Positions 5,665 to 24,217 of a stretch of DNA of 33,128 nt are shown one piece after another. This DNA comes from Bacteroidales bacterium (GTDB lineage: Bacteria > Bacteroidota > Bacteroidia > Bacteroidales > JAADJA01). A program made the translations under genes and the position numbers. The stretch's first letter is position 1. Every line of letters begins with the position of its first letter. Location of the stretch: the NCBI GenBank assembly GCA_016783885.1, contig JADHVR010000042.1:1-33128 (forward strand), written 5' to 3'. Under the pieces are notes generated by a model. That model did not search any database, was not told the origin of the DNA, and saw nothing but the letters and a program-made list of their open reading frames with translations.

Positions 5665-6288
5665 CTACTTTATCATGTCCAGCCCTTCCAGAGCCGATTC
5701 ATCATTTGGCTGGTTCATCAGCACTTTATTAAAAAGCACCTCCGCCTCACGAAACTTGCCTAATTTAAGGTTTGTCCAGGCGTACATTAACAAACCATCA
5801 TAATCAAAGGGATAAAGATTTACAACTCTTTCAAAATATTTAAGGGCGGTGGTATAATCTTCATTGCCGTAATAAATAGAGCCAAGCTTATAATTTGCCA
5901 TCGAATTTTGCGGGTCGATCTTCAGTATTTCATTGTACTGCTTTTTCACCTGTTCCCAATTACCAAGAGCCGACGCAGGGTAAACATACCCGAATTTTGC
6001 CTCAATTGACAATGGTTTCAATTCAATGGCTTTTTGATAATATGCCGTTGATTCGGTAAAAAAGCCAGCCATGTATGTAAGCCAGCCCAGCCTGAGATTT
6101 ATCTCATATGATTCTTCATCATAAACATTTTTCAGAGCATCAATAGCTTTTGAATAGTCGCCGCTGTATTCGTACAGGTAGCTTTTCTCAAATGCATCCT
6201 GTATGGTTTTATAATCCTGTGCTTGCGAAGTAACGGTAATAATTAGTCCCGTTAAAGTCAATAAAAATAATTTCCTTAAAGTTTCCAT
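5665..6288 (-). CDS. Small exported tetratricopeptide-repeat protein
   Basis: A 207-residue protein with a signal peptide (METLRKLFLLTLTGLIITV, then TSQAQD) cleaved near residue 23, and about five TPR units, for example YYQKAIELKPLSIEAKFGY, YNEILKIDPQNSMANYKLG and YFERVVNLYPFDYDGLLMY. The mature protein should be periplasmic, since no lipobox cysteine is present. It is the last gene of the urea-transporter/barrel operon. Its ATG overlaps the previous gene by 13 nt and has an unusually good Shine-Dalgarno sequence inside that gene. TPR proteins act as protein-binding scaffolds, so a partner for the barrel protein or the M23 protein is inferred. Confidence 0.88.
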   Translation of the reverse strand: METLRKLFLLTLTGLIITVTSQAQDYKTIQDAFEKSYLYEYSGDYSKAIDALKNVYDEESYEINLRLGWLTYMAGFFTESTAYYQKAIELKPLSIEAKFGYVYPASALGNWEQVKKQYNEILKIDPQNSMANYKLGSIYYGNEDYTTALKYFERVVNLYPFDYDGLLMYAWTNLKLGKFREAEVLFNKVLMNQPNDESALEGLDMIK

Positions 6289-7826
6289 TTTAGTCCTCCT
6301 GTTATTGTGTTGTTTTGATAATCTGAACCTATTGTTTTATAAGAATTTTCTCCATTATACCTGATCAGATAACATTCCTCATTAAAAAATTGGTAACGGA
6401 GCGATAATTCAATTTTGTGCGACAAAGTTATTATTAAATTAGTTCCTGCCCTGAATTTGATCTTATCCCCCAAATTATGAACGATAAAACCATTCTTTTC
6501 ATTGTAATTTATCATTTCGCCAATAGTAATAAATCCTTCTGTCCATATCTTAGGTGAAACTTTTACTCCGGCAAGTTGTTCAAATACAAACCTGTTTTTT
6601 TGTTCTCCCCAGGCAGAAACAAGGGTGGAGGTCGTATAAAAATCAAGATTGCCTTTTGGAAACCAGGTGAATAACGTGCCAAGCTGATATTGATTTTTAT
6701 TGTTCAGGTTTGAATATGAACCGAATAACCCGAGATTAAACACAGAGATATTTTTATACAAAGCTAAAGAGGCAACGTAATTATTAAAGGAAGTATCTTT
6801 TTGCTTTATCGAGTAAACAGGTATTGAAGGAATGGTGTCATAAGACTGGGCATATTTCATTTTAATGTTTGCATAAATTGTATTATACCTGACATTTATC
6901 CAATGAAAAGCAGGTATCAGGGTAAATCCTTTTCCCAGAGCAATATTTGCATTAATGTAAACCTGGTTTTGATAAAGTTTATAGTTTTGATTATACATGT
7001 TTGAATTCCTTTTATAAAGTGTGTCAACATAATACGATCCGTTATAAAGTATTGTATCGTATCCCGTTTTCACTATTTCGGGAGCCTGAATTTGTTTAAG
7101 CTTTGAAATGGTAAGATTGGTATAGCCTAAGTAAACTGAAAATCTTTTTCCGATGTATTGCCTGAGTCCTAATTGAAGATAGTATTTGTTATCGTTCAGG
7201 TCTTGCTCGCCATAAATACTGTCTCTACCCATCAGGTTCCGCCTTTTGTTTTTGCTTATATTGTTACTAAATGTCGGGCCTGTTCCAAAATAAATATTGT
7301 TTATGATCCTGTTCGGGTCTGGCTTAATTTTTTGTTGTAGGCTTTCAGAGAAATGTTCCGATAATTCATTGGCTTCCAAATCCCTGTTTGTGTTCAGATA
7401 GCAGTAGTACAGGTATTCCAAAGTGCTTTGGTCGTTTGTATTGAATTTTATGGCTTTTTCAAATTGATATGCTGCTTTACGGTAATTATCAATTTCATAA
7501 AAAGCAATCCCGATTCTCATTCTGAGATAGAAATAGTCGATGTTTTCTTTGAGGGCTTGTTTGCTAATAATAATCAGAGAATCCCAATTTTTTTGCAGGT
7601 AAAGCCGGTATGTTTTTTTGTCAATGGTTTTGGAATTTAGGTCTGTGGGCTGTGCTAGGATTGAAGGTGAAATAATGATGATTACAAGAAGCATGATCAC
7701 CCCCCCCCTAATCCCCCCAAGGGGGGAGAAATCCATCACTTTTCCACCCTGGTGCGGCTGAGACCTTATTATCCCCCCCTGAGGGGGGCTGGGGGGGGAA
7801 TGCCTTTGGAAAATATTTTTTTTCAT
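6276..7826 (-). CDS. TPR plus outer-membrane beta-barrel protein
   Basis: A 516-residue protein. Residues about 59-150 hold TPR-like helices (AAYQFEKAIKFNTNDQSTLE). From about 155 to the end there are alternating amphipathic strands (YYLQLGLRQYIGKRFSVYLG, FTLIPAFHWINVRYNTIYA), ending GGLKWKL, as expected for an outer-membrane beta-barrel, resembling YaiO-like TPR-barrel proteins. The start at 7826 overlaps the previous gene's stop by 4 nt (ATGA). Residues about 9-43 are encoded by a GC-rich repeat (7700-7798) inserted between MKKNIF and the hydrophobic core MLLVIIIISPSILAQ, so the signal peptide is split or re-started at Met45. Substrate and partners are unknown. Operon context suggests an envelope-spanning function with the M23/urea transporter protein. 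Confidence 0.82.
   Translation of the reverse strand: MKKNIFQRHSPPSPPQGGIIRSQPHQGGKVMDFSPLGGIRGGVIMLLVIIIISPSILAQPTDLNSKTIDKKTYRLYLQKNWDSLIIISKQALKENIDYFYLRMRIGIAFYEIDNYRKAAYQFEKAIKFNTNDQSTLEYLYYCYLNTNRDLEANELSEHFSESLQQKIKPDPNRIINNIYFGTGPTFSNNISKNKRRNLMGRDSIYGEQDLNDNKYYLQLGLRQYIGKRFSVYLGYTNLTISKLKQIQAPEIVKTGYDTILYNGSYYVDTLYKRNSNMYNQNYKLYQNQVYINANIALGKGFTLIPAFHWINVRYNTIYANIKMKYAQSYDTIPSIPVYSIKQKDTSFNNYVASLALYKNISVFNLGLFGSYSNLNNKNQYQLGTLFTWFPKGNLDFYTTSTLVSAWGEQKNRFVFEQLAGVKVSPKIWTEGFITIGEMINYNEKNGFIVHNLGDKIKFRAGTNLIITLSHKIELSLRYQFFNEECYLIRYNGENSYKTIGSDYQNNTITGGLKWKL
6294..6300 (-). promoter_or_regulatory. Strong Shine-Dalgarno site for the small TPR gene
   Basis: AGGAGGA on the minus strand lies 5 nt before ATG 6288, inside the C-terminal codons of the upstream barrel gene (codons for GG of ITGGLKWKL). 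Strong Shine-Dalgarno sequences are uncommon in Bacteroidota. Here it fixes the start and suggests coupled translation. Confidence 0.7.
7700..7798. repeat. GC-rich intragenic repeat inserted in a signal-peptide coding region
   Basis: This 99-nt (33-codon) block is far more GC-rich than its surroundings. It begins and ends with C or G homopolymers and contains two hairpins, ccccccaagggggg (7713-7726) and a C6/G6 stem (7773-7788). It encodes PPSPPQGG and FSPLGGIRGG, peptide strings I recognise as typical of a common Bacteroidota inserted repeat. The long homopolymers are also sites where sequencing indels are likely. Confidence 0.75.
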
Positions 7827-10021
7827 TCTGCCTTTTCTGCTTCTATTGTTTTGTTACCGGCAACGACAACAAATTTTTGTATCCGGTTAGATTCAATCGC
7901 AAACTCAAAGTTTAATTCTTTAGTGACTTTTTTATTTCGTTTTACCTGCACTCCTGAAATAAGTAAAATTTGACTCTCAGTCATGTTGTCCTTTATCCGG
8001 GCATATTCCAAAGTATATTCCGATTTAATAAACCTGTAAAAAGGCGCGATAAAATCCTGAAGAAAGATCAGATATTTGTTATTGAGAGTATTTATCGGTA
8101 GCTGATCCGATATTGTTAATCCTTTGTAAAAACCGAAGATAACCTTATATGCTCCAAGATAGAAGTAAAATAGCAGTGATTTTTTATCACCCTCAAAATG
8201 TGTGAAATAATGAATGCTGCCATCGTTTTTAAACCAGGCTTTTGATTTGGTTTTCTCGCAATAAATACAGGAGTTATTATAAATATCCGTTTGAACTTCC
8301 CATGTCGTCTTTTCTTCTTTCCCCGATTTTGTTACTTTAAACGTGATTTTTTGTCCGGGAATAAAATGGAATGCCTTGTACAGTGTCTTATTTTTCTCGA
8401 TATTCGAAATAACCTCATCCTTTAAAGGTTTGTCATAAGATATTAAAACAAAATCTTTTTTCTTTCGCAAAATATAATGCCCTATTGGATAATCCAGGGT
8501 TTCTGAACCGATAAAAGGGTTTTCCTGAATTTGAAAATGGATATGAGGTTCCGGCGACCGCCCCGAGTTGCCGCAATAAGCAAGAATATCGCCTTTTTTT
8601 ACAGTATCGCCTTTTTTTACTTTGAATGATTCTTTTTTAATATGGCTGATCTTAGAATAAAGTTTTTCGGCATGTTTAACAATAATAGTGTTTCCCCAGT
8701 TTTGTTCAAGGTTCATATCACCGATTTCATTATCATCAACTCCATCAACGATTTCTTCCACCCAGCCGTCAGCAGGAGAAATAACAGGTTTATTATAGCA
8801 ATAAAAATCTTTTTTTTCGGCGCCGTTTCCCTTGTGATTATAACCGTTTTCATCCACAATTTCAAAATCCCAGGCATGAGCCCAGCTTTCTTTGTGGGTA
8901 TATTCGCCATGATGCGCCTGTGTTACAATCCATTCTCCCCAAAACGGTAACGAAAAGGGTATATATTTAAAATTGTGGAATCTTTCTTTATTATTTAATT
9001 GGGAATATAGATTTTTTTCAGGTGAAAATTGCTGATACACCACAATTTCCGGTTTGTGATAATATCTTTCCCTGAACTTGAGGATATAAAGAAACAACAG
9101 AACAATAAAGTTGAATGGTAGCGAATAAATAGAAAGCTGGAATAATGACATTATTGCCATTGTGCTGGTAACGGTAATGGAGATCAGGGGTGTAAGAAGT
9201 ATAACCCAAAGAAATGAATATTTTGACGGAACAATAAAGAAGCCACCGACTGCAATGGCTGTTAAAATAAAGTTAAAACCGATATAGCTGTAACTAAGCT
9301 CATATATGTTTCCGCCAACAAACTGGTAAAGAAAATATGCAGAAAAAAATCCAATGATTGATAAAAGAAAAGCTATCCTTGAATAAATTAGTAAGCCAAT
9401 TGCGATAACAATCCCCGCAAACAGGTGATACTGAAAGAATATAGCACCCAAAGACCTGAAATAAATGACGATTGATTCGTGAAGGTTAAGGTTGGAGAAC
9501 CAGTTATAAATGCCTACAAAAAAATAACCGCCAATGCTGAACAGTTCATTTGCCATAAAAATTCCCCTTTCACTGATGGCAAGGGCAGTAAATTCGCGGG
9601 AGGCAAGGGTTACTGTCCATATTCCGAACAGAAATGATAAGCTCAGGAAAGGCAAGCCGTATTTGCCTATCACTCCCTCAAGTAAAATCGTAACAAATAA
9701 AGTGAGAATGGAAGCAAAAAGCAGAACAAGTAAAAATTCCATGCCCATCTGGTAATAAATGCCCAATCCCAAACCAACCAGTAAAGAATTAAAACCATAA
9801 TAACCTGATTTTATGTTAAACCTGTTGAAGCCAACAAGGTATGCCGTAATGTTGGATGACAGAACAGCTATCAGCCCGCTTATTCCTGCGTTCAGATCAA
9901 AAAAAGAAACAATAAGCAGGATAATGCCAAATACCTTGCTGTTTGAGAAAAAAATTTGTGTATAGCTGTTAAGTATGCTATTGATGAAATGAGGGAATAT
10001 GTTTTTTAGCTTTTTGAGCAT
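7823..10021 (-). CDS. Urea transporter (UT/SLC14 fold) fused to M23 peptidase domain
   Basis: A 732-residue polytopic protein. Residues 30-315 form a urea-transporter-like membrane domain with two pseudo-repeats: GYYGFNSLLVGLGLGIYY (73-90) with LPFLSLSFLFGIW (123-135), and YIGFNFILTAIAVGGFF (246-262) with SLPFNFIVLLF (300-310). Residues about 360-500 are an M23/LytM metallopeptidase: H382-x-x-D385 (AHAWDFEI), H460 and H493-x-H495 (EPHIHFQIQ) match the zinc and catalytic ligands. About 230 further residues of unassigned sequence follow. It is first in a three-gene overlapping operon. ATG 10021 is clear. M23 enzymes cut peptidoglycan cross-links or act as non-enzymatic envelope regulators; coupling to urea or a small amide solute is inference. 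The basic segment after the last helix (KFRERYYHK) would put the peptidase in the cytoplasm by the positive-inside rule, which conflicts with a wall substrate. Confidence 0.88.
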   Translation of the reverse strand: MLKKLKNIFPHFINSILNSYTQIFFSNSKVFGIILLIVSFFDLNAGISGLIAVLSSNITAYLVGFNRFNIKSGYYGFNSLLVGLGLGIYYQMGMEFLLVLLFASILTLFVTILLEGVIGKYGLPFLSLSFLFGIWTVTLASREFTALAISERGIFMANELFSIGGYFFVGIYNWFSNLNLHESIVIYFRSLGAIFFQYHLFAGIVIAIGLLIYSRIAFLLSIIGFFSAYFLYQFVGGNIYELSYSYIGFNFILTAIAVGGFFIVPSKYSFLWVILLTPLISITVTSTMAIMSLFQLSIYSLPFNFIVLLFLYILKFRERYYHKPEIVVYQQFSPEKNLYSQLNNKERFHNFKYIPFSLPFWGEWIVTQAHHGEYTHKESWAHAWDFEIVDENGYNHKGNGAEKKDFYCYNKPVISPADGWVEEIVDGVDDNEIGDMNLEQNWGNTIIVKHAEKLYSKISHIKKESFKVKKGDTVKKGDILAYCGNSGRSPEPHIHFQIQENPFIGSETLDYPIGHYILRKKKDFVLISYDKPLKDEVISNIEKNKTLYKAFHFIPGQKITFKVTKSGKEEKTTWEVQTDIYNNSCIYCEKTKSKAWFKNDGSIHYFTHFEGDKKSLLFYFYLGAYKVIFGFYKGLTISDQLPINTLNNKYLIFLQDFIAPFYRFIKSEYTLEYARIKDNMTESQILLISGVQVKRNKKVTKELNFEFAIESNRIQKFVVVAGNKTIEAEKAE

Positions 10022-10275: not shown

Positions 10276-11634
10276 CTACAACTCAAACTCCTTCAAATGA
10301 TCCGGCACCTTTTCCATCGCAATTATCCTTTCAATGGTTTCATTTTCTCTAATCACGTATGCTTTACCTTTTTCATCAATCATCACCACTTTAGGTCTCA
10401 GGGTTATGAACTGCATCCATTGGGTCATATTATAAGCTCCAACGTGATGGATCACAAAATTGTCGCCTTTATTCAATAATGGCAGGCTTATACTTTCGCG
10501 TATAACATCAATATTCATGCACAGAGGTCCGTAAAGCGTTGTGTCTTCGGTATAATGTGTAAACGGCTGTGCAGGTGAGATCTTGTGGTCGTACCAGAAA
10601 GAAGTGAAAAGAATATTTACACCAATATCAATAATAGTGGTTCGTTTACCTGCAGAAGATCGTTTATTTGAAATAACCGTACCTAAAAGGAATCCTGCAT
10701 CATCAATTAAAGCCCTACCCGTTTCAAGGACGAGCATCGGAAGATTATCGGGTTCGAAATCCGAATTGATCAGGGCGCTTGTAATAGCTTCGGCAAAATC
10801 ATCGAATGTCGGGTTGGTATCATCGCCGGGCAGGTAAGAACCTTTAAGCGTATTTTTTGATGCAAATCCGCCGCCCATGTCAATGTATTTTATATCGTGA
10901 TTGTATTTCTTTTTCACGCCCAATGCCAGGTCAGCCATTTTAAAAGCAGCCGTTCCGTAAGCTTGGGCAGTAAGCATAAAAGTACCGATGTGGCAATGTA
11001 ATCCCACCAGTTCCAGTTTATCCGACCGCATAATCTTGTTCAAAGCATCCCATGCCTGTCCGTTTTCATAGTTGAACCCGAAACGATCCCACATAGGATA
11101 AATGCCTGTGTCCATGTTCACCCTGATAGCTACTTTAGGTTTTTTCTTTAGCTTATCAGTTAGCTCGATAATGGAATAAAGCTCGTCGAGGTGATCGATA
11201 TGAATGATCGATTCGTTTTTAATGGCTTTTTCAAGGTCTTCTTCAGTTTTGTCGGGTCCGTTAAAAATGATTTTGCTTCCATCAACTCCGTTCAGGATAG
11301 CTTTATCGTATTCAAATCCCGAAACCACTTCAGCCCATGAGCCTTCCTGGTGGAAGACATTGCAAACAGCGCCCAGGTAATTGGTTTTATACGACCATGC
11401 AAATTGCACTTTAGGATACCTTGTGGTAAATGCTTTTTTTGCATCCTTGTATGTCTTTCTGATTGTTGATTCGGAGATCACAAACAAAGGCGAACCGTAT
11501 TCCTTAATAAGGTCTTTTACTGCTACTCCGTCAATATGTGTTTTCGGGACGTATTCGGTTCGCAGTCCGAATTTATTTGGCATATTGGTTTCCAGCTTTT
11601 TTAAAACCGGTCGTTCATATCTTAACTTTTCCAT
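10276..11634 (-). CDS. PLP-dependent decarboxylase, fold type III (DapDC/LysA-like)
   Basis: A 452-residue cytoplasmic enzyme with alanine-racemase-type barrel and C-terminal beta domain. Visible motifs are the PLP lysine K83 in AWSYKTNYLGAVC, HCHIG (213-217), the phosphate-binding GGG (254-256), ETGR (304-307), and the second-subunit active-site motif GPLCMNIDV with C372 and D376. These match diaminopimelate, ornithine, arginine or carboxynorspermidine decarboxylases. The substrate cannot be read from motifs. The sequence around K83 (YKTN rather than YAxKAN) and the long N-terminal extension differ from housekeeping LysA. It lies downstream of an ATP-grasp and a PqqD-like gene on the same strand with a 144-nt repeat-filled gap, so a specialised pathway, not lysine synthesis, is suspected. 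Confidence 0.88.
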   Translation of the reverse strand: MEKLRYERPVLKKLETNMPNKFGLRTEYVPKTHIDGVAVKDLIKEYGSPLFVISESTIRKTYKDAKKAFTTRYPKVQFAWSYKTNYLGAVCNVFHQEGSWAEVVSGFEYDKAILNGVDGSKIIFNGPDKTEEDLEKAIKNESIIHIDHLDELYSIIELTDKLKKKPKVAIRVNMDTGIYPMWDRFGFNYENGQAWDALNKIMRSDKLELVGLHCHIGTFMLTAQAYGTAAFKMADLALGVKKKYNHDIKYIDMGGGFASKNTLKGSYLPGDDTNPTFDDFAEAITSALINSDFEPDNLPMLVLETGRALIDDAGFLLGTVISNKRSSAGKRTTIIDIGVNILFTSFWYDHKISPAQPFTHYTEDTTLYGPLCMNIDVIRESISLPLLNKGDNFVIHHVGAYNMTQWMQFITLRPKVVMIDEKGKAYVIRENETIERIIAMEKVPDHLKEFEL

Positions 11635-11658
11635 GTTTATTATTTGTGTTAAATTATT

Positions 11659-11697
11659 AATCGTAAATCGTAAATCGTCATTCGTAAATCGTCAATC
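11659..11697 (+). repeat. 7-bp tandem repeat (aatcgta type)
   Basis: Five and a half heptamers, aatcgta, aatcgta, aatcgtc, attcgta, aatcgtc and aatc, lie in the gap between the decarboxylase and ATP-grasp genes. It is clearly visible and its function is unknown. Confidence 0.85.
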
Positions 11698-11709
11698 TTT
11701 TTCTAACCA

Positions 11710-11776
11710 GACTCTTCCATGTCCCCTGACTGTCTCTTCCATCCAGATAACTATCGGGATTCGGACTCGGAAGGTC
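11710..11776 (-). repeat. Divergent copy of the 54-nt intergenic repeat family
   Basis: On the minus strand it begins gaccttcc and ends acatggaagagtc, matching the ends of the copies near the ATPase gene, but with a longer and different centre (67 nt). It begins 2 nt after the ATP-grasp stop codon. It may separate the ATP-grasp and decarboxylase genes transcriptionally. Confidence 0.55.
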
Positions 11777-11778
11777 AG

Positions 11779-12822
11779 TCAGAGTTCTCCTGTTGTTGAA
11801 ATCCGGTGAAATTCCTCCACGTCAACGATCATTTCATTGGAATACCTGATAAACATTTTACCGACAGCATATTCCTTATAAGGTTCAACTTTTTCGCCCA
11901 AAGCAAGTTTAACAAGTGCTTTCGGAATATTCTGACCCACACCTACCGAAAGGTATATCCATGCAGGCATACGCGGATTTATCTCTAACAGGTTGTATTC
12001 ATTATTGTGATCTTTAAGTAATTCAAGTTCAAATGCACCGCGCCACTTGGTTGACGAAATAAAATGATTCGTCAGTTTAAAAATTTCTTTATCATCAACG
12101 GAAATGCCACCCCATGCTTTGCCTTTATCAGTGATATATTGTTTCCGCATAGGCACAATTGAAATTGTATTTCCTTTTCCATCTCCCAGTCCTGCCACGT
12201 CGTATTCAGTACCATGAATAAATTGCTGTATAATAATAGGCAACCCCCATTTACTGCTGATCTTATTGTAGTAAGTGTTGACCTGTTCGGGCGTGTGGGC
12301 TATTTCGGCATCATATAATTTTCCTTTGACCGCAACAGGGTAAGAAAATTCATCGGTCAAACCACCGATTTCTGCAGTTGAATAAATAGCTTTGCTGTGA
12401 GGGACTTTAATATTGTATCGTTTCCCAAAGTCGGGCAGGTTAATCTTATGACGTTCTTCAAATTGTTCGGCTGTTGGCAAAAAAGTGTTTATACCCATTT
12501 CTTTCAGCCTGGATTCGAGCTTTATCATAGGGAACAATTCCGCATCGAAATTAGGAATGATCACATTTAGGTCTTCCGCATTGTTTATGTATTCAAGTCT
12601 TGCCAATAAATTATCCGTTCCGGCTGTAGGGTAGGGTATTTGATAGGTTTTGTCGATAAGGTTGTGCATATAAATGCCAGGTTCAAGCGATTCATAAGCC
12701 AAACCAATAATCTTTACATCAAGAGACTTTGCTTCACGCAAAGCCCTGATCACGGCTATTCCCGGACCGGGGCTGTCAATAGCATTTAATCCTGATACCG
12801 CAATATTAATTTTCTTTTTCAT
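11779..12822 (-). CDS. ATP-grasp carboxylate-amine ligase-like protein
   Basis: A 347-residue cytoplasmic protein. A Rossmann-like N-terminus (KINIAVSGLNAIDSPGPG) resembles carbamoyl-phosphate-synthase-like ATP-grasp enzymes. The ATP-grasp fold shows YPVAVKGKLYDAE (ATP-binding lysine), IIIQQFIHGTEYDV, the GAFELELL strand and the metal-binding LLEINPRMPAW. ATG 12822 is chosen over an upstream TTG (12834); it overlaps the PqqD-like gene by 17 nt, so the two are co-translated. ATP-grasp enzymes join a carboxylate to an amine or thiol through an acyl phosphate. The substrate is unknown. With PqqD and a decarboxylase nearby, modification of an amino acid or peptide is inferred. Confidence 0.88.
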   Translation of the reverse strand: MKKKINIAVSGLNAIDSPGPGIAVIRALREAKSLDVKIIGLAYESLEPGIYMHNLIDKTYQIPYPTAGTDNLLARLEYINNAEDLNVIIPNFDAELFPMIKLESRLKEMGINTFLPTAEQFEERHKINLPDFGKRYNIKVPHSKAIYSTAEIGGLTDEFSYPVAVKGKLYDAEIAHTPEQVNTYYNKISSKWGLPIIIQQFIHGTEYDVAGLGDGKGNTISIVPMRKQYITDKGKAWGGISVDDKEIFKLTNHFISSTKWRGAFELELLKDHNNEYNLLEINPRMPAWIYLSVGVGQNIPKALVKLALGEKVEPYKEYAVGKMFIRYSNEMIVDVEEFHRISTTGEL

Positions 12823-13066
12823 TTTCGGTTTCAATTAACAGATGTTGTTTAAGCATTCCCATAAAATCATTATAATCTTTTTCGAATGTAGCTTCATCGG
12901 TATTATACCTTGCAAGCATGGTTTTACTGATCTCTTCATAAGATTTTCCTTCTTTCAGGAAATTAAAGATTTCTATAGCAATGGGATTTACTGAAAAGGA
13001 TTCGCCTGTTGATGGGTTAAATACATATCCTGATTCGCTGGTCGCAATGTTTTTTTTGATTTTCAT
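12806..13066 (-). CDS. PqqD-like protein (RiPP recognition element fold)
   Basis: An 86-residue protein with the PqqD-family pattern: GYVFNPSTGESFSVNPIAIE (14-33), the short helix EIFNFLKEGKSYEEISKTML, a Y-x-x-D segment and a helix ending in MLKQHLLIE. PqqD-type domains are winged-helix peptide chaperones that bind leader peptides of ribosomally made, modified peptides (RiPPs). Some stand-alone relatives have other roles. It is the first gene of the trio and overlaps the ATP-grasp gene. No precursor-like short gene with a core peptide was found within about 500 nt on either side, so the partner may be elsewhere or may be a free amino acid or carrier. Confidence 0.82.
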   Translation of the reverse strand: MKIKKNIATSESGYVFNPSTGESFSVNPIAIEIFNFLKEGKSYEEISKTMLARYNTDEATFEKDYNDFMGMLKQHLLIETENEKEN

Positions 13067-13119: not shown

Positions 13120-13503
13120 TTACCATATTATTTTCACATCATACTTTCTAAAATTTTTATCTATTGTTACAATGTTAAATCTATTATAAATTGATTGGGC
13201 AATAATTAACCGGTCAAAAGGGTCTCTATGATGATACTGAAGTGATAATAATGTTATAAGGTGGTCAAAATTATAATCAAGGATAGAAAAGCCATTTTCT
13301 AAAAGGAATTTTTTTAAATCATCAAAACCAATAGAAATTTTTAATTTCCCAAGACTTATCTTGATAGCTAATTCCCACAAACTTGCTTTACTAACAAAAA
13401 CCTGATTATTCAAGTTTTCAATCGCTGAAATAGCTGTTTTTGATAACCTTTTTTCTCCTTCAATATACCAAATTAATGCATGTGTATCAATAATTATATT
13501 CAT
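13120..13503 (-). CDS. vapC: PIN-domain toxin, VapC-like
   Basis: A 127-residue PIN ribonuclease of normal length. Acidic active-site residues are visible: D6 in MNIIIDTHALIWY, E44 in SLWELAIK, D97 in HRDPFDRLIIAQ and D115 in TIDKNF. The start ATG overlaps the antitoxin stop by 4 nt (ATGA), the usual antitoxin-first order. VapC toxins cut tRNA or rRNA and are held inactive by the antitoxin. The symbol is a family name only. Confidence 0.85.
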   Translation of the reverse strand: MNIIIDTHALIWYIEGEKRLSKTAISAIENLNNQVFVSKASLWELAIKISLGKLKISIGFDDLKKFLLENGFSILDYNFDHLITLLSLQYHHRDPFDRLIIAQSIYNRFNIVTIDKNFRKYDVKIIW

Positions 13504-13712
13504 TGCATGTATTCTTTAAAGTCATCCAACGATTCATCAAAATCATCAGATACATAAGTAAAAATACCTTTTCCACAGCCAAATTTTCGCTTTTTCAAAG
13601 GCTTAGGTTGTTTTAAACTTCCAATAAAATTTTCAACTTCCCGAATTATTGATATATCATTAATTTGAATTATCCAGTCCAGTAATTCAAGTTTTTTTGT
13701 TTGAATATTCAT
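13500..13712 (-). CDS. VapB-like antitoxin, DUF2281 family
   Basis: A 70-residue protein with an N-terminal helical part (ELLDWIIQINDISIIREVEN) and a C-terminal toxin-binding tail, KFGCGKGIFTYVSDDFDESL then DDFKEYM, as in DUF2281 proteins that accompany PIN toxins. No separate DNA-binding fold is obvious. It precedes the PIN gene with a 4-nt overlap and lies between the proteases and the PqqD module. Confidence 0.78.
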   Translation of the reverse strand: MNIQTKKLELLDWIIQINDISIIREVENFIGSLKQPKPLKKRKFGCGKGIFTYVSDDFDESLDDFKEYMQ

Positions 13713-13776: not shown

Positions 13777-16700
13777 CTAATTTGTTTTAACGATTTTAAT
13801 AACGGAAATATTTTCTTTTGTTTTGAGGTGGCATATATAAATTCCATTTGTGATATTATTTTCTTCCCATTTTACGGAATGTAATCCGGCTGGGAATTTC
13901 TTTTCCGAAATAATTGTTGTTATTTTATTACCATGAATGTCATAAATACTAAGATTAATTTTATCTTCCTCTGCAAGATTGAAATTTATTGTTGTTTGCC
14001 CTGAGAATGGATTCGGGAAACTTAATAAAACAGGCTGATGCGAAACTGATGATTTACACTTTTCTGAAGTTATGACACCATCTACGCCAAAGAATTCCAG
14101 GATTTTCGCCATTAAATTCTTTTTAGTCGAAGGTGGCAAACCATCATCTAAGCCGCTGAAATCAAGAGTAGAGCCAATTGTTTTATAATTGCCGTTATCA
14201 AAAGCCACGGCAAAACCATGTTCCTCTTCAATACCGTGTAAAATAGTAAATGCGAGGGCTACAGGTACAGGTGCTAAGTAATAATTATAATACGGCATGG
14301 TTCCGGCATAACCAAATTCCATTCCTTCGGTGAAGGTTTCATTTATCCCAAAAACAGAGTCATTTAACGTCCATGTTATTGCTTCGGTTTCAATATTAAA
14401 CATAGGATGAACAACTGTTTGCGGATCATCAAACCAGGTAACTCCGCCTTCCATGTAAATGTTTCCACCGGCGTTCAGGAAGTCTGCCAGCTTCTGACCT
14501 TCAACTTCAGTTAAAATATGTTGTCCTAACTTTCTTCCTAAAACAACCAAAATATTCTGGTAAACATCCGGTTCATTTGGAATATAATTTTCGTAGTCAA
14601 ACGAAACATTTAATTCTTCAATAGTTGATTTAATAACCGGACCGGAAAGCAATTCAGGGTCCATATCAACAATCAGAACCGGAAAGCGTCCGATTAAAAG
14701 GTCGAAAGATTCGTAAATCATAAAGTCAGGCAATGCCGTGATACCGAAATCAAAATATACCAGATGACCCAGCGGAGTATTATCGGCAACTGTTAAATTT
14801 ATTGTGTCGCAGGCTGTTCCTCCTTTCGGGATATTTCCATAAATAAACTGCCCAGATCCGTTAAAAGTTATGTATGGATCAACCGTATTTAGATAACCTT
14901 CTACACCATTAGCAGTTGAATGACCATAGTTGTTTACCGGAATGATTAGATTAGCAGTTTCGCCGGGATCAAGTTTGCCGTTATCGTTATCATCTACAAT
15001 TGGAGTGCCCATTATTAGTATGGGTGAATAAGCTGTTAAATTGAATTTGCTTTCCCATAAGTTATTCAAGGAATTAAATATAGCAGAAAACGAAAGATCA
15101 TATTCATCAGGCACATTAGTATCAACGGAAAAAGATATAGCATCAGCAAGATTAATTGTTTGCCCGGGATTAACAGTGCCGATATATTCAGTACTATCGA
15201 GCATACTGATGAATGGATCGCTTATCTGAATATCAAAAGATACGTTATATATTGGTTGATTACTGATATTTTTAACAATAAAGCTTAATACAGGAGTTTC
15301 TCCGTAGTCAATCCGGTTATCATCGCCGGAGACAACTGAAAAGTAAAAAACAATTCCGTCAGAAAGCTGGTAAGTTTTTTCAGTTGAAATATTATTATAA
15401 TCAGTGGCTCTAATTGTAATGTTATAAATTTTATTATTTTCCTCCGGAAAAACAGTTAAAAGTCCATCATCGTTAATGTTCATGGATGACAGATAATTTT
15501 GGGGAGTATATGTAACAACCTGCTGTGATTCTGTTGGCAATAGATTAGAAAATTCAGCTATTTCATAATTTATTCCATCTCCGTTTGAGACGCCGGTTAT
15601 CCTGTAAAGATATTCGGGATTTTCAAAATTATCGTAATAATATTCTATACGCCCATCAGGATACAATATTGCAGTAAAATCCAACGGATATTCACCATTC
15701 TCACCCACGAGTGTTACAATCCATCTGAAGGCAGCGAAATTTTCATCTCCTTCGTACCACAAACCATCACCGGCAGAAGCATTGATTTTTAAATCCTGGT
15801 TCAGGAATAAAGCTGCCATAGGTTCATATTTGAATAACAGCATATCATCCACCTGGTAAGGAGTAGGATATTTAATTTCATTAAACATAAGAAATCCGTC
15901 AGTATGAATAGTGATGCTGTCATGATTTTCTCCGTAAAACGGAAAGGAAAAACCGATAGCCTGAGTAACATATCCGCTGGTACTGCTGTTAGGTATTATC
16001 TGTTGCCCCAGTATGTCAGGATAATTATCTTCAAATTGATTTTCGGAGTACCCGGTCAATATATCCCAGTTGTATGGTTCTGTGCCGCCTGTTGCTGTGA
16101 TTTGACAAGTAAATTGCTGATACGGAATAAAAGCCGGTAATTCTTCAGTTTCAATTATTATGTCATCAAAAGTTAAAGTATGAATAACCGCTAATGTTGT
16201 ATAGCCATTTTCAATTAGCGGCACATCGGTATCAGGACAGGCAATTTCTTGTCCGCCGTTGATATAATCCATCAGGGCGAAATAAATCAAATCACCTGTT
16301 GCTTCGTCTCCCGGGTCATGTTCATGAATCTGAAGAAAAAACTTAGCCGGCTCTCCATTGTTAACAAAACTCAATAATGGAGTTATGTCCAAGCCGAATA
16401 TAATAGTTTTATGCTGGTTTATCGTGTCATTACCTTGCATATAATGGTCGCCGCCCTGGTAGTTGAAAAGAGCAAAATCCATGGTATGTGCAGGCCAAAC
16501 ATCTGTTGTATCGGCTGACACACCGGCAATAACTTTTATTTTATGCCTTGAGTTATGCTTAAGCGTTACTTTGAACGTGAGTTTTGGAGAATAATCTCCT
16601 TTAACATTAATTATATGCACCGATTTATTCCATATTCCCCCATCGAATTTCTCCTCAGCCAGGGTTTTATACATCATATAGCAAAATCCGCTGTCAGCCC

Positions 16701-17577
16701 AGTCTTCTCCCCAACTGTTTGCGAATTTCATTCCTCCTATTTCCCAGTCTTTCATATTAACAACGCCATCACCATTAATGTCGATATGATTTGTATATTG
16801 CCCGTCGTTGTTATAATCCCACCTGATTGAATCGTTCCAGCCTATTATCGTCATAGCATGGCCATTATAAGCCCCCCAGAGTGGAACAACAAACTTGCCT
16901 TCTTCGGGTGTTCCGGGCGGAAGGTTATATAATGCCGGAACATCAGAATAGAAGTTGGCGACTCCACCATCAGGCGATCCGTTTAAATGGTCATACAGCC
17001 AGTATTTCAAAGCAAGAAATCCTTCTTCATCCCCAACATAAATCGAGTACATATCGGCAACCCGGTTAAACATGCCGTTATAATACTTATCATATCCTGA
17101 GAGCCATCTCAGATGGCTTCCACCCATTCCCCCGTAATCATAAACATTGGGAGTGCCATTGGATTTTAGTAAATCAAAACTGTAGAAATAACCCACACCC
17201 TGATCATAAATTCCATCATTATAAAAATTAAAAGCAAATTGCGTTGGATATTGGTTTACGGATGTGTTGCCTGCAACATTTCTCGCTCTGTTTATTTCGT
17301 AAGTAAAGTTGTATCCTATGCTTGCAGCCTGACCACATGACCATCCATCCTGCATAAAAATCGGACGGAAGTAAGGCAATTCGCTGTTGTCCAAAACCGA
17401 AGGCAGAAGCGGGGCATCCGGGCTTTTGTAGAAATCGGGTAACTTAAGCTGTGGCAAATTGATTAAATAAATCGAATCTGCAGCAGGGATTTTTGTTGAT
17501 TTAAATTGAAATTCCTGGGCATAAATGAACAGGTTTATTATAGTAAATAAAATAGTGAAATGTAGTTTTTTACTCAT
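13777..17577 (-). CDS. Secreted C1A papain-fold protease with NIDO-like, CARDB-like and T9SS domains
   Basis: A 1266-residue protein with a signal peptide (residues 1-20, ending IYAQ). The papain-type catalytic set is visible: Q76 and C81 in MQDGWSCGQAASIGY, H240 in GHAMTIIGW and N287 in FANSWGEDW. Between His and Asn is an EF-hand/dockerin-like calcium insert, DYNNDGQ (254-260) and DINGDGVVNMKD (266-277). After the protease come an Ig-like domain near 500 (TATGGTEPYNWD), a NIDO-like domain (about 530-660, DSITIHTDGFLMFN), a CARDB-like domain (about 750-950), a GATase1/flavodoxin-like domain (about 960-1160, GQKLADFLNAGGNIYMEGG) and a type A T9SS sorting domain (about 1190-1266, LLSFPNPFSGQTTINF). 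It starts 15 nt after the paralogue at 17593-21381 and is probably co-transcribed. It is probably an extracellular peptidase anchored or released through T9SS. Confidence 0.9.
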   Translation of the reverse strand: MSKKLHFTILFTIINLFIYAQEFQFKSTKIPAADSIYLINLPQLKLPDFYKSPDAPLLPSVLDNSELPYFRPIFMQDGWSCGQAASIGYNFTYEINRARNVAGNTSVNQYPTQFAFNFYNDGIYDQGVGYFYSFDLLKSNGTPNVYDYGGMGGSHLRWLSGYDKYYNGMFNRVADMYSIYVGDEEGFLALKYWLYDHLNGSPDGGVANFYSDVPALYNLPPGTPEEGKFVVPLWGAYNGHAMTIIGWNDSIRWDYNNDGQYTNHIDINGDGVVNMKDWEIGGMKFANSWGEDWADSGFCYMMYKTLAEEKFDGGIWNKSVHIINVKGDYSPKLTFKVTLKHNSRHKIKVIAGVSADTTDVWPAHTMDFALFNYQGGDHYMQGNDTINQHKTIIFGLDITPLLSFVNNGEPAKFFLQIHEHDPGDEATGDLIYFALMDYINGGQEIACPDTDVPLIENGYTTLAVIHTLTFDDIIIETEELPAFIPYQQFTCQITATGGTEPYNWDILTGYSENQFEDNYPDILGQQIIPNSSTSGYVTQAIGFSFPFYGENHDSITIHTDGFLMFNEIKYPTPYQVDDMLLFKYEPMAALFLNQDLKINASAGDGLWYEGDENFAAFRWIVTLVGENGEYPLDFTAILYPDGRIEYYYDNFENPEYLYRITGVSNGDGINYEIAEFSNLLPTESQQVVTYTPQNYLSSMNINDDGLLTVFPEENNKIYNITIRATDYNNISTEKTYQLSDGIVFYFSVVSGDDNRIDYGETPVLSFIVKNISNQPIYNVSFDIQISDPFISMLDSTEYIGTVNPGQTINLADAISFSVDTNVPDEYDLSFSAIFNSLNNLWESKFNLTAYSPILIMGTPIVDDNDNGKLDPGETANLIIPVNNYGHSTANGVEGYLNTVDPYITFNGSGQFIYGNIPKGGTACDTINLTVADNTPLGHLVYFDFGITALPDFMIYESFDLLIGRFPVLIVDMDPELLSGPVIKSTIEELNVSFDYENYIPNEPDVYQNILVVLGRKLGQHILTEVEGQKLADFLNAGGNIYMEGGVTWFDDPQTVVHPMFNIETEAITWTLNDSVFGINETFTEGMEFGYAGTMPYYNYYLAPVPVALAFTILHGIEEEHGFAVAFDNGNYKTIGSTLDFSGLDDGLPPSTKKNLMAKILEFFGVDGVITSEKCKSSVSHQPVLLSFPNPFSGQTTINFNLAEEDKINLSIYDIHGNKITTIISEKKFPAGLHSVKWEENNITNGIYICHLKTKENISVIKIVKTN

Positions 17578-17592
17578 TGTTAGATTTTTAAA

Positions 17593-20500
17593 TTAAAATT
17601 TTATTATTTTTTCAGTAGAGATATTTTTTTCTGTTTTAAGTCTGCAAATATAAATTCCATTTGAAAATTTTTTTCCGTCCCACAATACCGAATGTTTTCC
17701 TGCCGGAAATTCTTTTCCTGTCAAAAGGGTTGATACTTTAACACCGTGAATATCGTATATGTCAATATATATGTTTTCAGTTCGGGTAAGTAAAAAGGAG
17801 ATTGTTGTATTTTCAGAAGTCGGGTTTGGATAACAAAATAATACCCGATTTTCCAAATCATAATAATTCTTATTAATGGCGCTGGTAGTGTCTAATCCAA
17901 AAAAAATAAGCATTTTCATCATTAGATTATTTTTGGTTGATGGCGGCAGGCTGTCATTAAGTCCGCTGAAATCAATTATAGAACCTATTGTTTTATAATT
18001 TCCGTTATTATAGGCTACTGCAAATCCATGCTGCTCACTTGCCCGTTGCAATATGGTATATGCCGGTTCAACCGGTTCCAGGTAGTAATTGTAATATGGC
18101 ATATCCCCCGAAAAGGTAAATGATAGTCCTTCGGTAAATGTATTGATGATGCCAGATACGGTATCAATCAAATTCCATGTAAGAGGCACTGTGTTAATAT
18201 TAAACATGGGATGAACAGCAGTCTGCGGGTCATCGAACCAGGTCATTCCTCCTTCCATATAAATGTTTCCACCGGTATTCAGGAAATCTGCCAGCTTTTG
18301 ACCTTCGTATTCTGTTAAAATATGTTGTCCGAACATTCTTCCCAATACAATAAAAATATTTTGAAAAATATCCGGTTCGCCTGGGATGTAATATAAATAA
18401 TCAAACAAAACATTCAGTTCTTCCAATGTTGATTTAATAACCGGACCTGAAAGCAACTTCGGATCCATATCTATTATCAGGATAGGATATCGTCCTATTA
18501 ACATGTCGAAAGATTCTTCAATTATAAAATCAGGTAATGCTGTGATTTCGAAATCAAAGTGTGATGAATGTCCCTGAGGAGTGTTATTAGCAACTGAAAT
18601 ATTAATTGTATCATATACAGAACTGCCTTTCGGGATGTTGCCAAAGTAGAATTGATTTGAACTGTTCAGAGAAATATAAGTATCGTATGTGGTTAACAGT
18701 CCTTCAACGCCGATAGCGTTTGAATGTCCATAATTATTCACCGGTATTATAAGGTTTACTGTTTCTCCGGGGTCAAATATTCCATTATCATTGTCATCCA
18801 CAAAAGGACTACCCAAAGAAAGAACCGGGGCATAAGCTTTTACGTTAAAGCTTCCTTCCCACGAACCGGTTGCTGTATTTATTATCACATCAAATGTCAG
18901 GTTGTAATTATCAGGAATACCTGTTTCCGTTGAAAATGAAATTGCATCAGGTAAATAAATGGTTTGCCCCGGATAGATAGTCCCGATATTTTCCGTACTG
19001 TCGGTCATTGTAATGAAAAGATCATTTATTTGAACTGTCAGTATAACATTGTTTACAGGTTGATTTCCTGTGTTTTTAATTGCAAAGCTCAAAACAGGGG
19101 TTTCACCGTAGTCAATCCGGTTATCATCTCCCGATGTAATTGTGAAGTAAAAAACAATACCATCAGAAAGCTGAAAGGTTTTTGAATCTGAAATATTATG
19201 GTAATCAGTGGCTTTAATTGTAATGTTGTAGATTTTATTGTTTTCATCCGGGAGAACAGTTAAAAGTCCCTCATCGTTAATGTTCATTGATGAAATATAA
19301 TTTTGGGGAGTGTAAGTAACAACCTGAGGCGATTTTGCCGGAAAGAGATTTGAAAACCCTGCAATCTGATAATTAATTCCATCTCCGTTTGAGATGCCTG
19401 TTATCCTGTAAAGATATTCGGGATCATTAAAATTATCGAAATAATATTCTATATTTCCATCAGGATATAAAATAGCAGTAAAGTCCAGTTGATAGTTTCC
19501 ATTTTCCTCCATAAGCGTTTCAATCCATCTGAATGCTGCATAATTCGCATTTCCCTCATACCACAATCCGTTTCCTGCCGATGAATTGATAATTAAATCC
19601 TGGTTAAAGAAGGGAGCTAACATTGATTCATATTTAAAAGGAAACATATCGTCAACCTGGTAAGGGATCGGATATTTCAATGTATCGAACATCAGGAATC
19701 CATCTACATGAATTGTAACGGTATCATACATATTACCATAGAAGGGAAAGGGAAATTCAATGGCTTGTATAGCGTATCCTGAAGAACTGCCGTTTGGATT
19801 TAACTGTTGACCCTGTATGGCTGGGTAATCGTCTTCGTATTGATTTTCGGAATACTCCATTAAAAGTTGCCACTTATAAGGCTCTGTACCTCCTGACGCT
19901 GACATTTGGTGAGTATATTGCTGTCCGGATATACAGGGTGGTAATTCTTCTGTGTCAATATTTACTTTATTTATGTTAACCTGATGAACAACCGATAAGG
20001 TTGTATAACCGTTTTCAATTATTGTAACATTAGTATCGGAACATACTATCTCCTGCAAACCATTGGAATAGTCCATCAATGAATATTGCAAAAGGGAACC
20101 ATTATAAAAATTGTACGGGTCGTGCTCTTTAACCTGTATGAAAAATTTGACAGGCTCTCCCGGGTTTATATAACTTATTAAAGGTGTAACATCCAGCCCA
20201 AACTCTATTGTTTTATTTGCTTCAATAATGTCGATTCCCTGCATATAATGATTGCCTCCCTGGTAATTGAATATTGGAAAATCAAGGATGTGTGCAGTCC
20301 ATACGTCAGTTGTGTCGTTTGAAACACCTGCAGAAACTTTTATTTTATTTCGTGAACTATGTTTAAGTTTAACCTTGTAAGCCAATGTTGGAGAATAATC
20401 CTCTTTCACTTCTATTATATATACTGATTTATTCCATATTCCTCCATCCAGTTTTTCTTCAGCCAGGGTTTTGTACATCATATAGCAAAATCCGCTGTCA

Positions 20501-21381
20501 GCCCACCATTCGCTATAACTGTTTATAAATTTCAATCCGCCGATTTCCCAGTCTTTCATGTTAATAATTCCATCCTCATTTATATCTACATCATTGGTGT
20601 ATAAACCGTCATTATTGTAATCGTACCGGATTGAGTCATTCCAACCGACAATGGTCATAGAATGTCCGGAATAGGGTCCCCATTGAGTAACCACACACTT
20701 ACCTTCTTCGGGTGTGCCTGGAGGCAGGAATGTATGTGTGTAATAATCCGTATAAAAATTTGCCAGACTTCCGTACTCTGATCCGTTAAGATGATCAAAC
20801 AGCCAGTATTTTAAAGTAATTAAGCCGTTTGAATCTCCAACATAAATTGAATAAACATCCGAAATACGATTGTTCATGCCGTTATAATATTTTTCATACC
20901 CTGTCATCCATTTTAATTGGTTATCACCCATTCCGCCATATTCAATAACATTCGGTTGACCGTTTGATTTTATTGCTTCCCATGTATAATAAAAACACAC
21001 TCCCACATCGTTTTCCGCATTATTGAAAAAGTTCCAGGTAAACAACGGGGGATATTGGTTGGCGCTGTCTTTAGCAGGAAGATTCCGAACACGGTTTATT
21101 TCATAAGTAAAATTATATCCGATACTGCTTGCCTGTCCGCATGAATAAGAGTATTGCAGAAAGGGCGGACGTAAAAATGGCAATTCGCTGTTATCGTGGA
21201 TTGCAGGAAGTTGGGGAGCATAAGTCCCTTTATAATTTTCAGGCAATGTAAGTTGCGGCAGGTTTATTAAACAGATAGAATCCTGAAACGTAAGTTTTTT
21301 TGCAGATAAAGGATAATTCTGAGCGTTCAGATGCAGGCTGATAAAAGTAATAATGAGATAATGTAATAGTTTGATTTTCAT
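17593..21381 (-). CDS. Secreted C1A papain-fold protease paralogue with degenerate NSWG motif
   Basis: A 1262-residue protein, collinear along its whole length with the 1266-residue neighbour. It has a signal peptide (1-20), C81 in LQYSYSCGQASSIGY, H240 in GHSMTIVGW and the EF-hand insert (DYNNDGL, DINEDGIINMKD). Asn287 is kept, but the usual NSWG is NSYSEWW, so activity may be altered. Ig-like, NIDO-like, CARDB-like, GATase1-like and type A T9SS domains follow, ending in NGIYICRLKTEKNISTEKII. A strong promoter match lies just upstream (21411-21442), so this gene leads a two-gene transcript. It is a tandem-duplication product with the next gene; divergence looks substantial, so the duplication is not recent. 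Confidence 0.9.
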   Translation of the reverse strand: MKIKLLHYLIITFISLHLNAQNYPLSAKKLTFQDSICLINLPQLTLPENYKGTYAPQLPAIHDNSELPFLRPPFLQYSYSCGQASSIGYNFTYEINRVRNLPAKDSANQYPPLFTWNFFNNAENDVGVCFYYTWEAIKSNGQPNVIEYGGMGDNQLKWMTGYEKYYNGMNNRISDVYSIYVGDSNGLITLKYWLFDHLNGSEYGSLANFYTDYYTHTFLPPGTPEEGKCVVTQWGPYSGHSMTIVGWNDSIRYDYNNDGLYTNDVDINEDGIINMKDWEIGGLKFINSYSEWWADSGFCYMMYKTLAEEKLDGGIWNKSVYIIEVKEDYSPTLAYKVKLKHSSRNKIKVSAGVSNDTTDVWTAHILDFPIFNYQGGNHYMQGIDIIEANKTIEFGLDVTPLISYINPGEPVKFFIQVKEHDPYNFYNGSLLQYSLMDYSNGLQEIVCSDTNVTIIENGYTTLSVVHQVNINKVNIDTEELPPCISGQQYTHQMSASGGTEPYKWQLLMEYSENQYEDDYPAIQGQQLNPNGSSSGYAIQAIEFPFPFYGNMYDTVTIHVDGFLMFDTLKYPIPYQVDDMFPFKYESMLAPFFNQDLIINSSAGNGLWYEGNANYAAFRWIETLMEENGNYQLDFTAILYPDGNIEYYFDNFNDPEYLYRITGISNGDGINYQIAGFSNLFPAKSPQVVTYTPQNYISSMNINDEGLLTVLPDENNKIYNITIKATDYHNISDSKTFQLSDGIVFYFTITSGDDNRIDYGETPVLSFAIKNTGNQPVNNVILTVQINDLFITMTDSTENIGTIYPGQTIYLPDAISFSTETGIPDNYNLTFDVIINTATGSWEGSFNVKAYAPVLSLGSPFVDDNDNGIFDPGETVNLIIPVNNYGHSNAIGVEGLLTTYDTYISLNSSNQFYFGNIPKGSSVYDTINISVANNTPQGHSSHFDFEITALPDFIIEESFDMLIGRYPILIIDMDPKLLSGPVIKSTLEELNVLFDYLYYIPGEPDIFQNIFIVLGRMFGQHILTEYEGQKLADFLNTGGNIYMEGGMTWFDDPQTAVHPMFNINTVPLTWNLIDTVSGIINTFTEGLSFTFSGDMPYYNYYLEPVEPAYTILQRASEQHGFAVAYNNGNYKTIGSIIDFSGLNDSLPPSTKNNLMMKMLIFFGLDTTSAINKNYYDLENRVLFCYPNPTSENTTISFLLTRTENIYIDIYDIHGVKVSTLLTGKEFPAGKHSVLWDGKKFSNGIYICRLKTEKNISTEKIIKF

Positions 21382-21410
21382 TTTGCGAAACTATGTTCTT
21401 TATTTGTTAG

Positions 21411-21442
21411 CAAAAATAGTGAATCGCACCGATAAAACCAAA
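21411..21442 (-). promoter_or_regulatory. Bacteroidota-type promoter for the duplicated protease pair
   Basis: On the minus strand TTTG (21442-21439), 20 nt, then TATTTTTG (21418-21411) fits the -33/-7 consensus TTTG and TAnnTTTG. The start point would be near 21405, giving a leader of about 24 nt before ATG 21381. This is the clearest promoter match in the window. Confidence 0.65.
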
Positions 21443-21563
21443 TTTGAATCAGGTAAAGGTTCGGATAGGTAAGTTAACGGTTATCTTCATGTTATCTTTT
21501 TAGGTTGCTGTCAAGTAATGGGGTATCTAAAAAAGCATTATAAATTATACAAAATTTGCCTAA

Positions 21564-24116: not shown

Positions 24117-24217
24117 GATTATTGTTTTTAAATTAATATAGTTGTTAGACAATTTTATATTGAATTAAGTTGTCAATTAAGGTGAATTCGGGATTAAAAA
24201 AAGCTATGCTATATTTT

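Follow-up and report, generated by a model that had tools for sequence, protein, structure and literature searches.

A leader-like tail on a decarboxylase as the likely ligand of a stand-alone PqqD-like protein in a six-gene operon of Bacteroidota

Introduction

Recognition elements (RREs) are known from the pathways of ribosomally synthesized and post-translationally modified peptides (RiPPs) as binders of precursor leaders. What a stand-alone RRE binds where no separate precursor gene is found is the question raised by a 33,128-nt contig of a Bacteroidales bacterium (JADHVR010000042.1, assembly GCA_016783885.1; this whole stretch is called the window below). Its minus strand carries a six-gene operon that encodes a PqqD-like protein, an ATP-grasp ligase, a pyridoxal phosphate (PLP)-dependent decarboxylase, a fusion of a urea-transporter (UT) channel and an M23 domain (UT-M23), a protein with tetratricopeptide repeats (TPR) and a probable barrel, and a secreted TPR protein. 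We propose that the PqqD-like protein very likely binds the N-terminal tail of the decarboxylase, which resembles the leader of a lasso-peptide precursor. The features on which this proposal rests are the following.

12806-13066, minus strand: pqqD-like gene for a stand-alone RRE protein of 86 aa, PF05402
11779-12834, minus strand: ATP-grasp ligase, 351 aa from a TTG start, with an alternative ATG at 12822
10276-11634, minus strand: PLP-dependent decarboxylase of the alanine-racemase fold, FigC/FslC-like, 452 aa
11566-11634, minus strand: leader-like N-terminal tail of the decarboxylase, residues 1-23 (MEKLRYERPVLKKLETNMPNKFG), with Y6/P9/L11, K21 and G23

A preliminary description of the window had picked out three same-strand genes with these domains, the first two overlapping by 17 nt, and this is borne out (the ATP-grasp and pqqD genes overlap by 17 nt when the former starts at ATG 12822). 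It had also presented the three as a module; the genes are real and were correctly read, but the unit comprises six genes, three more lying at 10021-5665.

The PqqD-like Protein Has the Hallmarks of an RRE

Searching GTDB genomes with the ATP-grasp protein as query gave 146 relatives. We kept the best 80; with the window they make 81 loci, three of which (L003, L006, and L057) end ahead of the decarboxylase. Forty further loci (L162-L201) were picked for their ATP-grasp match, 33 of them from a draw of 395 Bacteroidota genomes. Some of these may be conspecific with some of L003-L082, and the trees used below drop only identical ATP-grasp sequences. Genes were counted from mechanical open reading frames (ORFs), each assigned to its one best family; the numbers did not change when all matches of every query were counted instead.

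The PqqD-like protein matches PF05402 with 44 bits (Pfam cut-off 23.4), in agreement with the RRE fold that had been assigned to it. N27 is present in all 121 sequences and F68 in 116 of them, while position 64 is Asp or Asn in 91. According to PMC13381572, D70 of LppB hydrogen-bonds the leader Tyr, N33 of LppB stabilizes the kink at the leader Pro, and F83 of PbaB1 is the Phe that sits between the two leader pockets in published complexes. Matched by spacing, N27 corresponds to LppB N33, D64 to LppB D70, and F68, in the third helix, to PbaB1 F83. Judged by its sequence, then, the PqqD-like protein has the hallmarks of an RRE: the profile match, and an Asn and a third-helix Phe at spacing-matched positions. 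It shares with the discrete RREs of the lasso B1, LppB, and PqqD type the PF05402 domain and, again by spacing, the Asn that contacts Pro and the third-helix Phe. In members whose tail has Tyr, position 64, which by spacing may be the Tyr-contact position, is Asp or Asn.

The Decarboxylase Carries a Leader-like N-Terminal Tail

The folded part of the decarboxylase starts near residue 33, and residues 1-23 form an extension with the consensus MEKxxYERPxIKKLxxGMPNKFG. Its motif, [YF]xxPx[ILV], was present in all 118 loci scored, including L039, where the decarboxylase is broken and was scored on its own N-terminal piece (YERPVI). Of 559 mechanical ORFs outside the operon in the 81 loci, each 150 aa or longer, 21 contain a looser version of the pattern. 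The tail consensus is absent from 16 non-operon decarboxylases of the superfamily, one of which (in L128) fits the loose pattern through a chance YDLPYL. Beyond the motif, a Lys at +15 (K21) is found in 117 of 117 tails and a Gly at +17 (G23) in 116 of 117. Tail residues 4-23 are 56.3% identical, compared with 58.2% for the first folded stretch, and are joined to the body by a variable linker (residues 24-32; 29.6% identity). The decarboxylase alignment covers 111 of the 118 loci and leaves out L022, a fusion, and ORFs under the length limit.

In the AlphaFold model of the decarboxylase (mean confidence score, pLDDT, 84.4), residues 1-30 are the lowest stretch, with a pLDDT of 39-55; two ten-residue blocks in the body stand at 57 and 63. 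Being conserved yet unplaced in the model, the tail looks like a ligand for another partner.

Most discrete RREs of lasso peptides recognize the motif [Y/W]xxPx[L/V/I/A/F/Y] (PMC13381572), and in lasso precursors the leader motif spans -17 to -12, position -2 is held by a special residue, and Gly is residue 1 (PMC10368454). When Y6 is set to -17, K21 falls at -2 and G23 at +1, as in lasso precursors. The tail is thus like the YxxPx[L/V/I/A/F] leaders of lasso peptides both in its ligand motif and in the distance from the motif to the -2 residue and the Gly. With the motif taken as given, we put the probability that the two positions best conserved outside it land at -2 and +1 at about 1 in 66, so this register is suggestive only.

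Tail and PqqD-like Protein Covary

Position 6 of the tail and position 64 of the PqqD-like protein change together. Tails with Tyr6 are paired with D64 (85) or N64 (4) in 89 of 89 loci, and tails with Phe6 with Tyr (19), Ser (8), Ala (1), or His (1) in 29 of 29, never with Asp or Asn; the rule has no exception in 118 loci. We asked how well columns of the other operon proteins sort the state of position 64, using 450 columns of the decarboxylase, 347 of the ATP-grasp ligase, 717 of UT-M23, and 202 of the TPR protein (111, 117, 94, and 88 loci, respectively). Decarboxylase position 6 is the sole column of these 1,716 that does so perfectly, the runner-up reaching 0.947. After background correction, the pair 64-6 also ranks first among 21,600 pairs of PqqD and decarboxylase columns (0.495; 72 loci). 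Members with Tyr that are nested in the Phe clade (L035, L046, and L047/L051/L062) carry Asp or Asn at position 64, which fits the prediction of a hydrogen bond.

Because of the lasso-like motif, the conservation of a tail that the model leaves unplaced, the 6/64 covariation, and the match in spacing between D64 and the Asp that contacts the leader Tyr, we consider it very likely that the PqqD-like protein binds the tail. A natural fusion of RRE and tail was not found.

Searches near the Operon Reveal No Separate Precursor Peptide

When mechanical ORFs of at least 40 aa were clustered over the 81 loci, no separate precursor peptide was found among the clusters present in at least five loci; ORFs under 40 aa lie outside this clustering. 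These clusters consist of the operon genes, antisense or overlapping frames (recognized by position), an AraC-type regulator, DUF2202 proteins, and scattered families of at most 10 loci each, such as type IX-tailed proteins; three clusters were named by Pfam from one member each. A profile search of the window's genome, which is 89.65% complete, for a second copy of the tail gave only 11.3 bits (E 1.36), and the DNA pattern [YF]E[RS]PxI had 4 hits, not inspected singly, compared with 12 for a reversed control. The sole leader-like sequence found is the one on the decarboxylase; a precursor gene, such as a RiPP cluster should contain, was not found. The preliminary description had seen no precursor nearby, which stands for a separate gene of at least 40 aa, but it had overlooked the leader-like tail. 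A remote peptide substrate was one of its suggestions; the recognition sequence is most likely the one on the decarboxylase itself.

Unlike in lasso systems, the motif is borne by a 452-aa enzyme, position 6 can be Phe, and no cyclase or B2 gene was seen in the operon. A lasso cluster was rejected, as 14 window ORFs scanned with Pfam include neither a PF00733 cyclase nor a B2 protease; two PF00733 matches in the window's genome are on other contigs.

The Six Genes Occur Together

All 81 loci have a pqqD gene upstream of the ATP-grasp gene, and a decarboxylase gene lies downstream of the latter in all 65 loci whose sequence extends at least 2 kb past it; the association noticed in the preliminary description is therefore not confined to the window's genome. 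The UT-M23 gene follows in 52 of 55 loci with at least 4 kb past the decarboxylase, and the full set of six is complete in 39 of 41 loci with at least 7 kb, the exceptions being L007 and L077. The genes are spaced as in an operon. On the basis of mechanical starts, pqqD overlaps the ATP-grasp gene in 60 of 81 loci, and the UT-M23 gene overlaps the one behind it in 42 of 51; the gap between decarboxylase and UT-M23 is below 100 nt in 46 of 65 loci (maximum 3,089) and amounts to 254 bases, without a change of strand, in the window. In the draw of 395 Bacteroidota genomes, the ATP-grasp protein (E up to 1e-30) was found in 34 and UT-M23 (E up to 1e-40) in 34, and the two sets are identical, the window's genome being among them.

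In the further 40 loci, pqqD, decarboxylase, and UT-M23 genes are present throughout (40/40; UT-M23 is split in two in L164), the TPR gene in 37, and a barrel candidate in 23, some of these candidates being smaller proteins of about 280 aa that match weakly. In the divergent families L170, L178, and L185, UT-M23 is followed by the TPR gene and then by a separate candidate barrel of ∼280 aa, and in L191 and L192 such a candidate precedes the TPR gene (weak matches in both cases). In L022 (5600-8107), ATP-grasp ligase and decarboxylase form a single 835-aa frame with the leader-like tail retained inside, which is either a natural fusion or an assembly error.

The AraC-type regulator cluster occurs in 33 of 81 loci, mostly ∼1 kb upstream of pqqD (e.g., L019:8995-9609; one member checked, HTH_18, 58.8 bits), and a DUF2202 protein lies near the operon in 12 loci (one member checked, L010:3002-3796). 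These neighbors suggest a shared regulon.

The Decarboxylase Resembles Enzymes That Act on Conjugated Amino Acids

The ATP-grasp ligase matches PF15632 (ATPgrasp_Ter) with 48.1 bits (Pfam cut-off 29.1) and PRK12767.1-4 with 90.2 bits, under the cut-off of 390 for that model. The decarboxylase matches PF02784 (Orn_Arg_deC_N; 104.7 bits) and PF00278 (Orn_DAP_Arg_deC; 47.5 bits). K83, H213, E304, C372, and D376 are each present in 111 of 111 aligned decarboxylases; three of them, K83, C372, and D376, had already been noted as intact. The closest solved relative, by sequence as well as by fold, is the N-citrylornithine decarboxylase FigC (7kh2), followed by diaminopimelate decarboxylase (DapDC); BtrK was also found. 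The score with the FslC model NF041039, 237.5 bits, does not reach the cut-off of 500.

The FigC pocket contains T327, Y331, and M355, and H357 and R387 are proposed to contact citrate (PMC7857480). In our own mapping, taken from a sequence alignment with 7kh2, T327, Y331, and M355 are kept as T344 (110/111), Y348 (108/111), and M373 (111/111), H357 and R387 are replaced by I375 and Q405 (111/111 each), and W347 stands where FigC has T330. As in FigC, T344 takes the place of the DapDC Arg and M373 that of the acidic residue beside the catalytic Cys. The same paper has FigC, SbnH, MccE, and BtrK acting on acylated or carrier-bound substrates (PMC7857480). One of these, MccE of microcin C, is a precedent for a fold that the preliminary description had thought unusual as a RiPP partner (PMC7857480). 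The replaced citrate contacts and the analogy with these four enzymes point to an amino acid that bears a neutral group as the probable substrate.

By its residues, the decarboxylase would belong to the acyl-type group of FigC/FslC, SbnH, AcsE, MccE, and BtrK, enzymes unrelated to polyamine metabolism, with which it shares the fold, the catalytic residues, and the loss of the DapDC Arg and Cys-adjacent acid, as judged from a comparison with FigC rather than from a tree. It differs from FigC in its citrate-contact positions, in its leader-like tail, and in having an ATP-grasp enzyme, not an NRPS-independent siderophore (NIS) synthetase, as ligase partner. BtrJ, from the butirosin pathway, is an ATP-grasp enzyme. 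With this ATP-dependent ligase, a small protein, and a decarboxylase of the same fold, that pathway follows a logic like that of the genes studied here; its small protein, BtrI, has 87 aa, and its decarboxylase is BtrK (PMC7857480). BtrI, however, carries the substrate as a thioester, whereas the PqqD-like protein matches a peptide binder. The C terminus of the PqqD-like protein is variable and shows no conserved residue for attachment, so a role as a carrier protein loaded at that end was rejected.

It is very improbable that the decarboxylase is simply the LysA of this organism, acting in ordinary lysine biosynthesis. It is the only TIGR01048 match in the window's genome, and 17 genomes of the same genus lack any match that exceeds the LysA cut-off. 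Its own TIGR01048 score, however, is 222.5 bits compared with a cut-off of 297.9, and it has lost the Arg and the acidic residue of DapDC (T344 and M373), whereas non-operon relatives keep [LM]RPxxY in 13 of 16 cases and CExxD in 11 of 16. Moreover, five related genomes (G018, G023, G026, G038, and G040) hold both this decarboxylase and an over-cut-off LysA. An identity as LysA was rejected on these three grounds, score, substrate residues, and coexistence. The preliminary description had named a housekeeping LysA role as an objection; no other LysA-like gene was found in this incomplete genome, but the lost residues and the five genomes that hold both speak against that role. Among same-genus genomes without an over-cut-off LysA, four are 94-97% complete and six carry a distant relative of ∼470 aa.

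A Channel-Peptidase Fusion and Two TPR Proteins Complete the Operon

7823-10021, minus strand: fusion of a UT domain and an M23 metallopeptidase, 732 aa
6276-7826, minus strand: protein with TPR and a probable outer-membrane beta-barrel, ORF of 516 aa, true start probably later
5665-6288, minus strand: secreted TPR protein, 207 aa, signal peptide recognized by eye

The UT-M23 protein consists of a UT domain (residues 13-314), which matches PF03253 and the UT fold, an M23 domain (residues ∼350-517), and a beta-rich C-terminal part. H376, D385, H460, H493, and H495, which we take to be the zinc and catalytic residues of M23, are present in 55 of 55 sequences, and the residue aligned with E187 of dvUT is Ala in 51 of 55. 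The M23 domain is predicted to lie on the cytoplasmic face of the UT-type channel. The protein differs from dvUT (3k3f) and from LytM/M23 peptidases in being a channel-peptidase fusion, in the predicted cytoplasmic side of its peptidase, and in the Ala at the E187 position. Foldseek and VIA results for it cover the UT and M23 parts.

The TPR/barrel protein, whose gene keeps its place in the operon across loci, probably forms an outer-membrane beta-barrel. The copy in the window has no Pfam match, and its relatives give weak TPR and sub-threshold DUF2490 matches in NCBIfam and Pfam, from which no barrel family could be named. The secreted TPR protein (TPR_2, 72.3 bits) is encoded by the last gene of the operon, a position that is conserved.

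Discussion

We favor, as moderately probable, a six-gene biosynthesis system in which the PqqD-like RRE binds the decarboxylase tail in place of a free precursor. By gripping this lasso-leader-like tail, the RRE would bring the decarboxylase to the ATP-grasp ligase, which, to judge from its family, would form an amide on a small amino acid or on the tail itself. By analogy with FigC, SbnH, MccE, and BtrK, the decarboxylase would strip the alpha-carboxylate from the conjugated amino acid, and it is likely that acylation by the ATP-grasp enzyme is coupled to decarboxylation of the conjugate. The M23 domain may cut the product or the tail free beside the channel, and the two TPR proteins may serve the outer envelope.

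Several observations weigh against this reading. Other decarboxylase columns also track PqqD-like position 64 closely (Q193, 0.441; H396, 0.358; 72 loci), so that shared ancestry contributes to the covariation. The ATP-grasp tree needs only four changes for each trait, all of them shared, and the starred branches yield 1-2 independent pairs (sign test, p 0.5-1), which puts formal significance out of reach. The equivalence of D64, N27, and F68 to LppB and PbaB1 residues is one of spacing rather than of computed structural alignment. E7 (110/111) and R8 (101/111) are conserved and lie outside the lasso motif, and in 29 of 118 tails Phe occupies the position at which the published lasso consensus has Tyr or Trp. 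Three loci, L007, L040, and L080, are without a UT-M23 gene in the 5.2-8.6 kb past the decarboxylase. Finally, pores of the UT type are narrow and may not suit a sizeable product.

It is possible, though rather doubtful, that the operon encodes a free small-molecule pathway leading to an N-acyl diamine, a siderophore-like compound, or a polyamine conjugate, with the ATP-grasp ligase replacing an NIS synthetase and with PqqD and tail as a mere scaffold. The rank of FigC as top relative, ahead of DapDC and with BtrK also found, and the FigA/FigC precedent (PMC7857480) agree with such a pathway. The proposed citrate contacts of FigC are replaced, however, a siderophore receptor is absent among the operon genes, and the M23 domain would be left unexplained. 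Borosins are RiPPs with a fused precursor, and the tail could likewise be a true precursor, presented by the RRE, modified by the ATP-grasp ligase (e.g., on K21, or on the G23 alpha-amine after a cut at F22/G23), and trimmed by M23. We regard this as unlikely, together with its corollary that the decarboxylase is enzyme and substrate carrier at once. The spacing equal to that of lasso precursors, with the motif at -17 to -12, the -2 residue, and Gly at +1 (PMC10368454), the fixed distance of K21 and G23, the contrast between the conserved residues 4-23 and the variable linker behind them, and the intact M23 residues all argue for it; the estimated 1-in-66 chance of the register and the ATP-grasp frame of L022, which runs into the tail directly, argue against it.

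Improbable as well is a RiPP system with a remote precursor, in which the decarboxylase tail would mimic a leader and compete for the RRE or regulate it. RREs normally bind precursor leaders, and no separate peptide gene lies near the operon, but the profile and pattern searches of the window's genome described above gave no second copy of the tail. We can also imagine, as a speculative and rather unlikely reading, a leader-tagged enzyme that loads itself. The M23 domain, bound to the channel on its cytoplasmic side, would cut the RRE-held tail at F22/G23 or expose it there, the ATP-grasp ligase would load an amino acid onto K21 or onto the amine of Gly23, and the same decarboxylase would act on the conjugate in cis before release via the channel.

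No description of this gene set or of its logic was found in the open-licence literature searched, and the available portions of PMC8939145, on graspetides, and PMC10352776, on Bacteroidales RiPPs, do not describe the set. The parts are of known kinds; new, as far as that literature goes, is the use of a RiPP leader code by an enzyme where a precursor is missing. If an RRE does serve an enzyme tail by the same code (Tyr/Asp, Pro/Asn), then PqqD genes that stand alone and have no precursor may in some cases belong to enzyme assembly rather than to RiPP loci. Proteins of this type normally catch the precursors of peptide antibiotics, and to have one grip a metabolic enzyme by its tail would be unusual in the organization of a biosynthetic pathway. 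Should the enzyme load itself, RiPP recognition would have moved from peptide products to the assembly of metabolic enzyme complexes. Whether D64 and Y6 pair as LppB D70 and the leader Tyr do is a question that can be addressed with two proteins. The operon also defines a six-gene system in 34 of 395 sampled Bacteroidota genomes, with an odd UT channel-peptidase fusion whose peptidase part is predicted to face the cytoplasm.

Other Features of the Window

Between the operon and a group of secreted proteins lies a PIN-domain gene with a DUF2281 partner, resembling a toxin-antitoxin pair (13120-13712, minus strand); a PIN gene also adjoins the operon in L004. The secreted proteins are encoded by three tandem genes (13777-24152, minus strand) and show, by eye, the papain-like motifs SCGQA, HAMT, and NSWG, with no peptidase match by Pfam. 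The first and third have type IX sorting tails by Pfam, the second not being among the proteins scanned, and a relative adjoins the operon in the near-identical locus L003. Further along, at 29403-31811 on the plus strand, a leucine-rich-repeat surface protein (BspA-type LRR_5) also ends in a type IX sorting tail.

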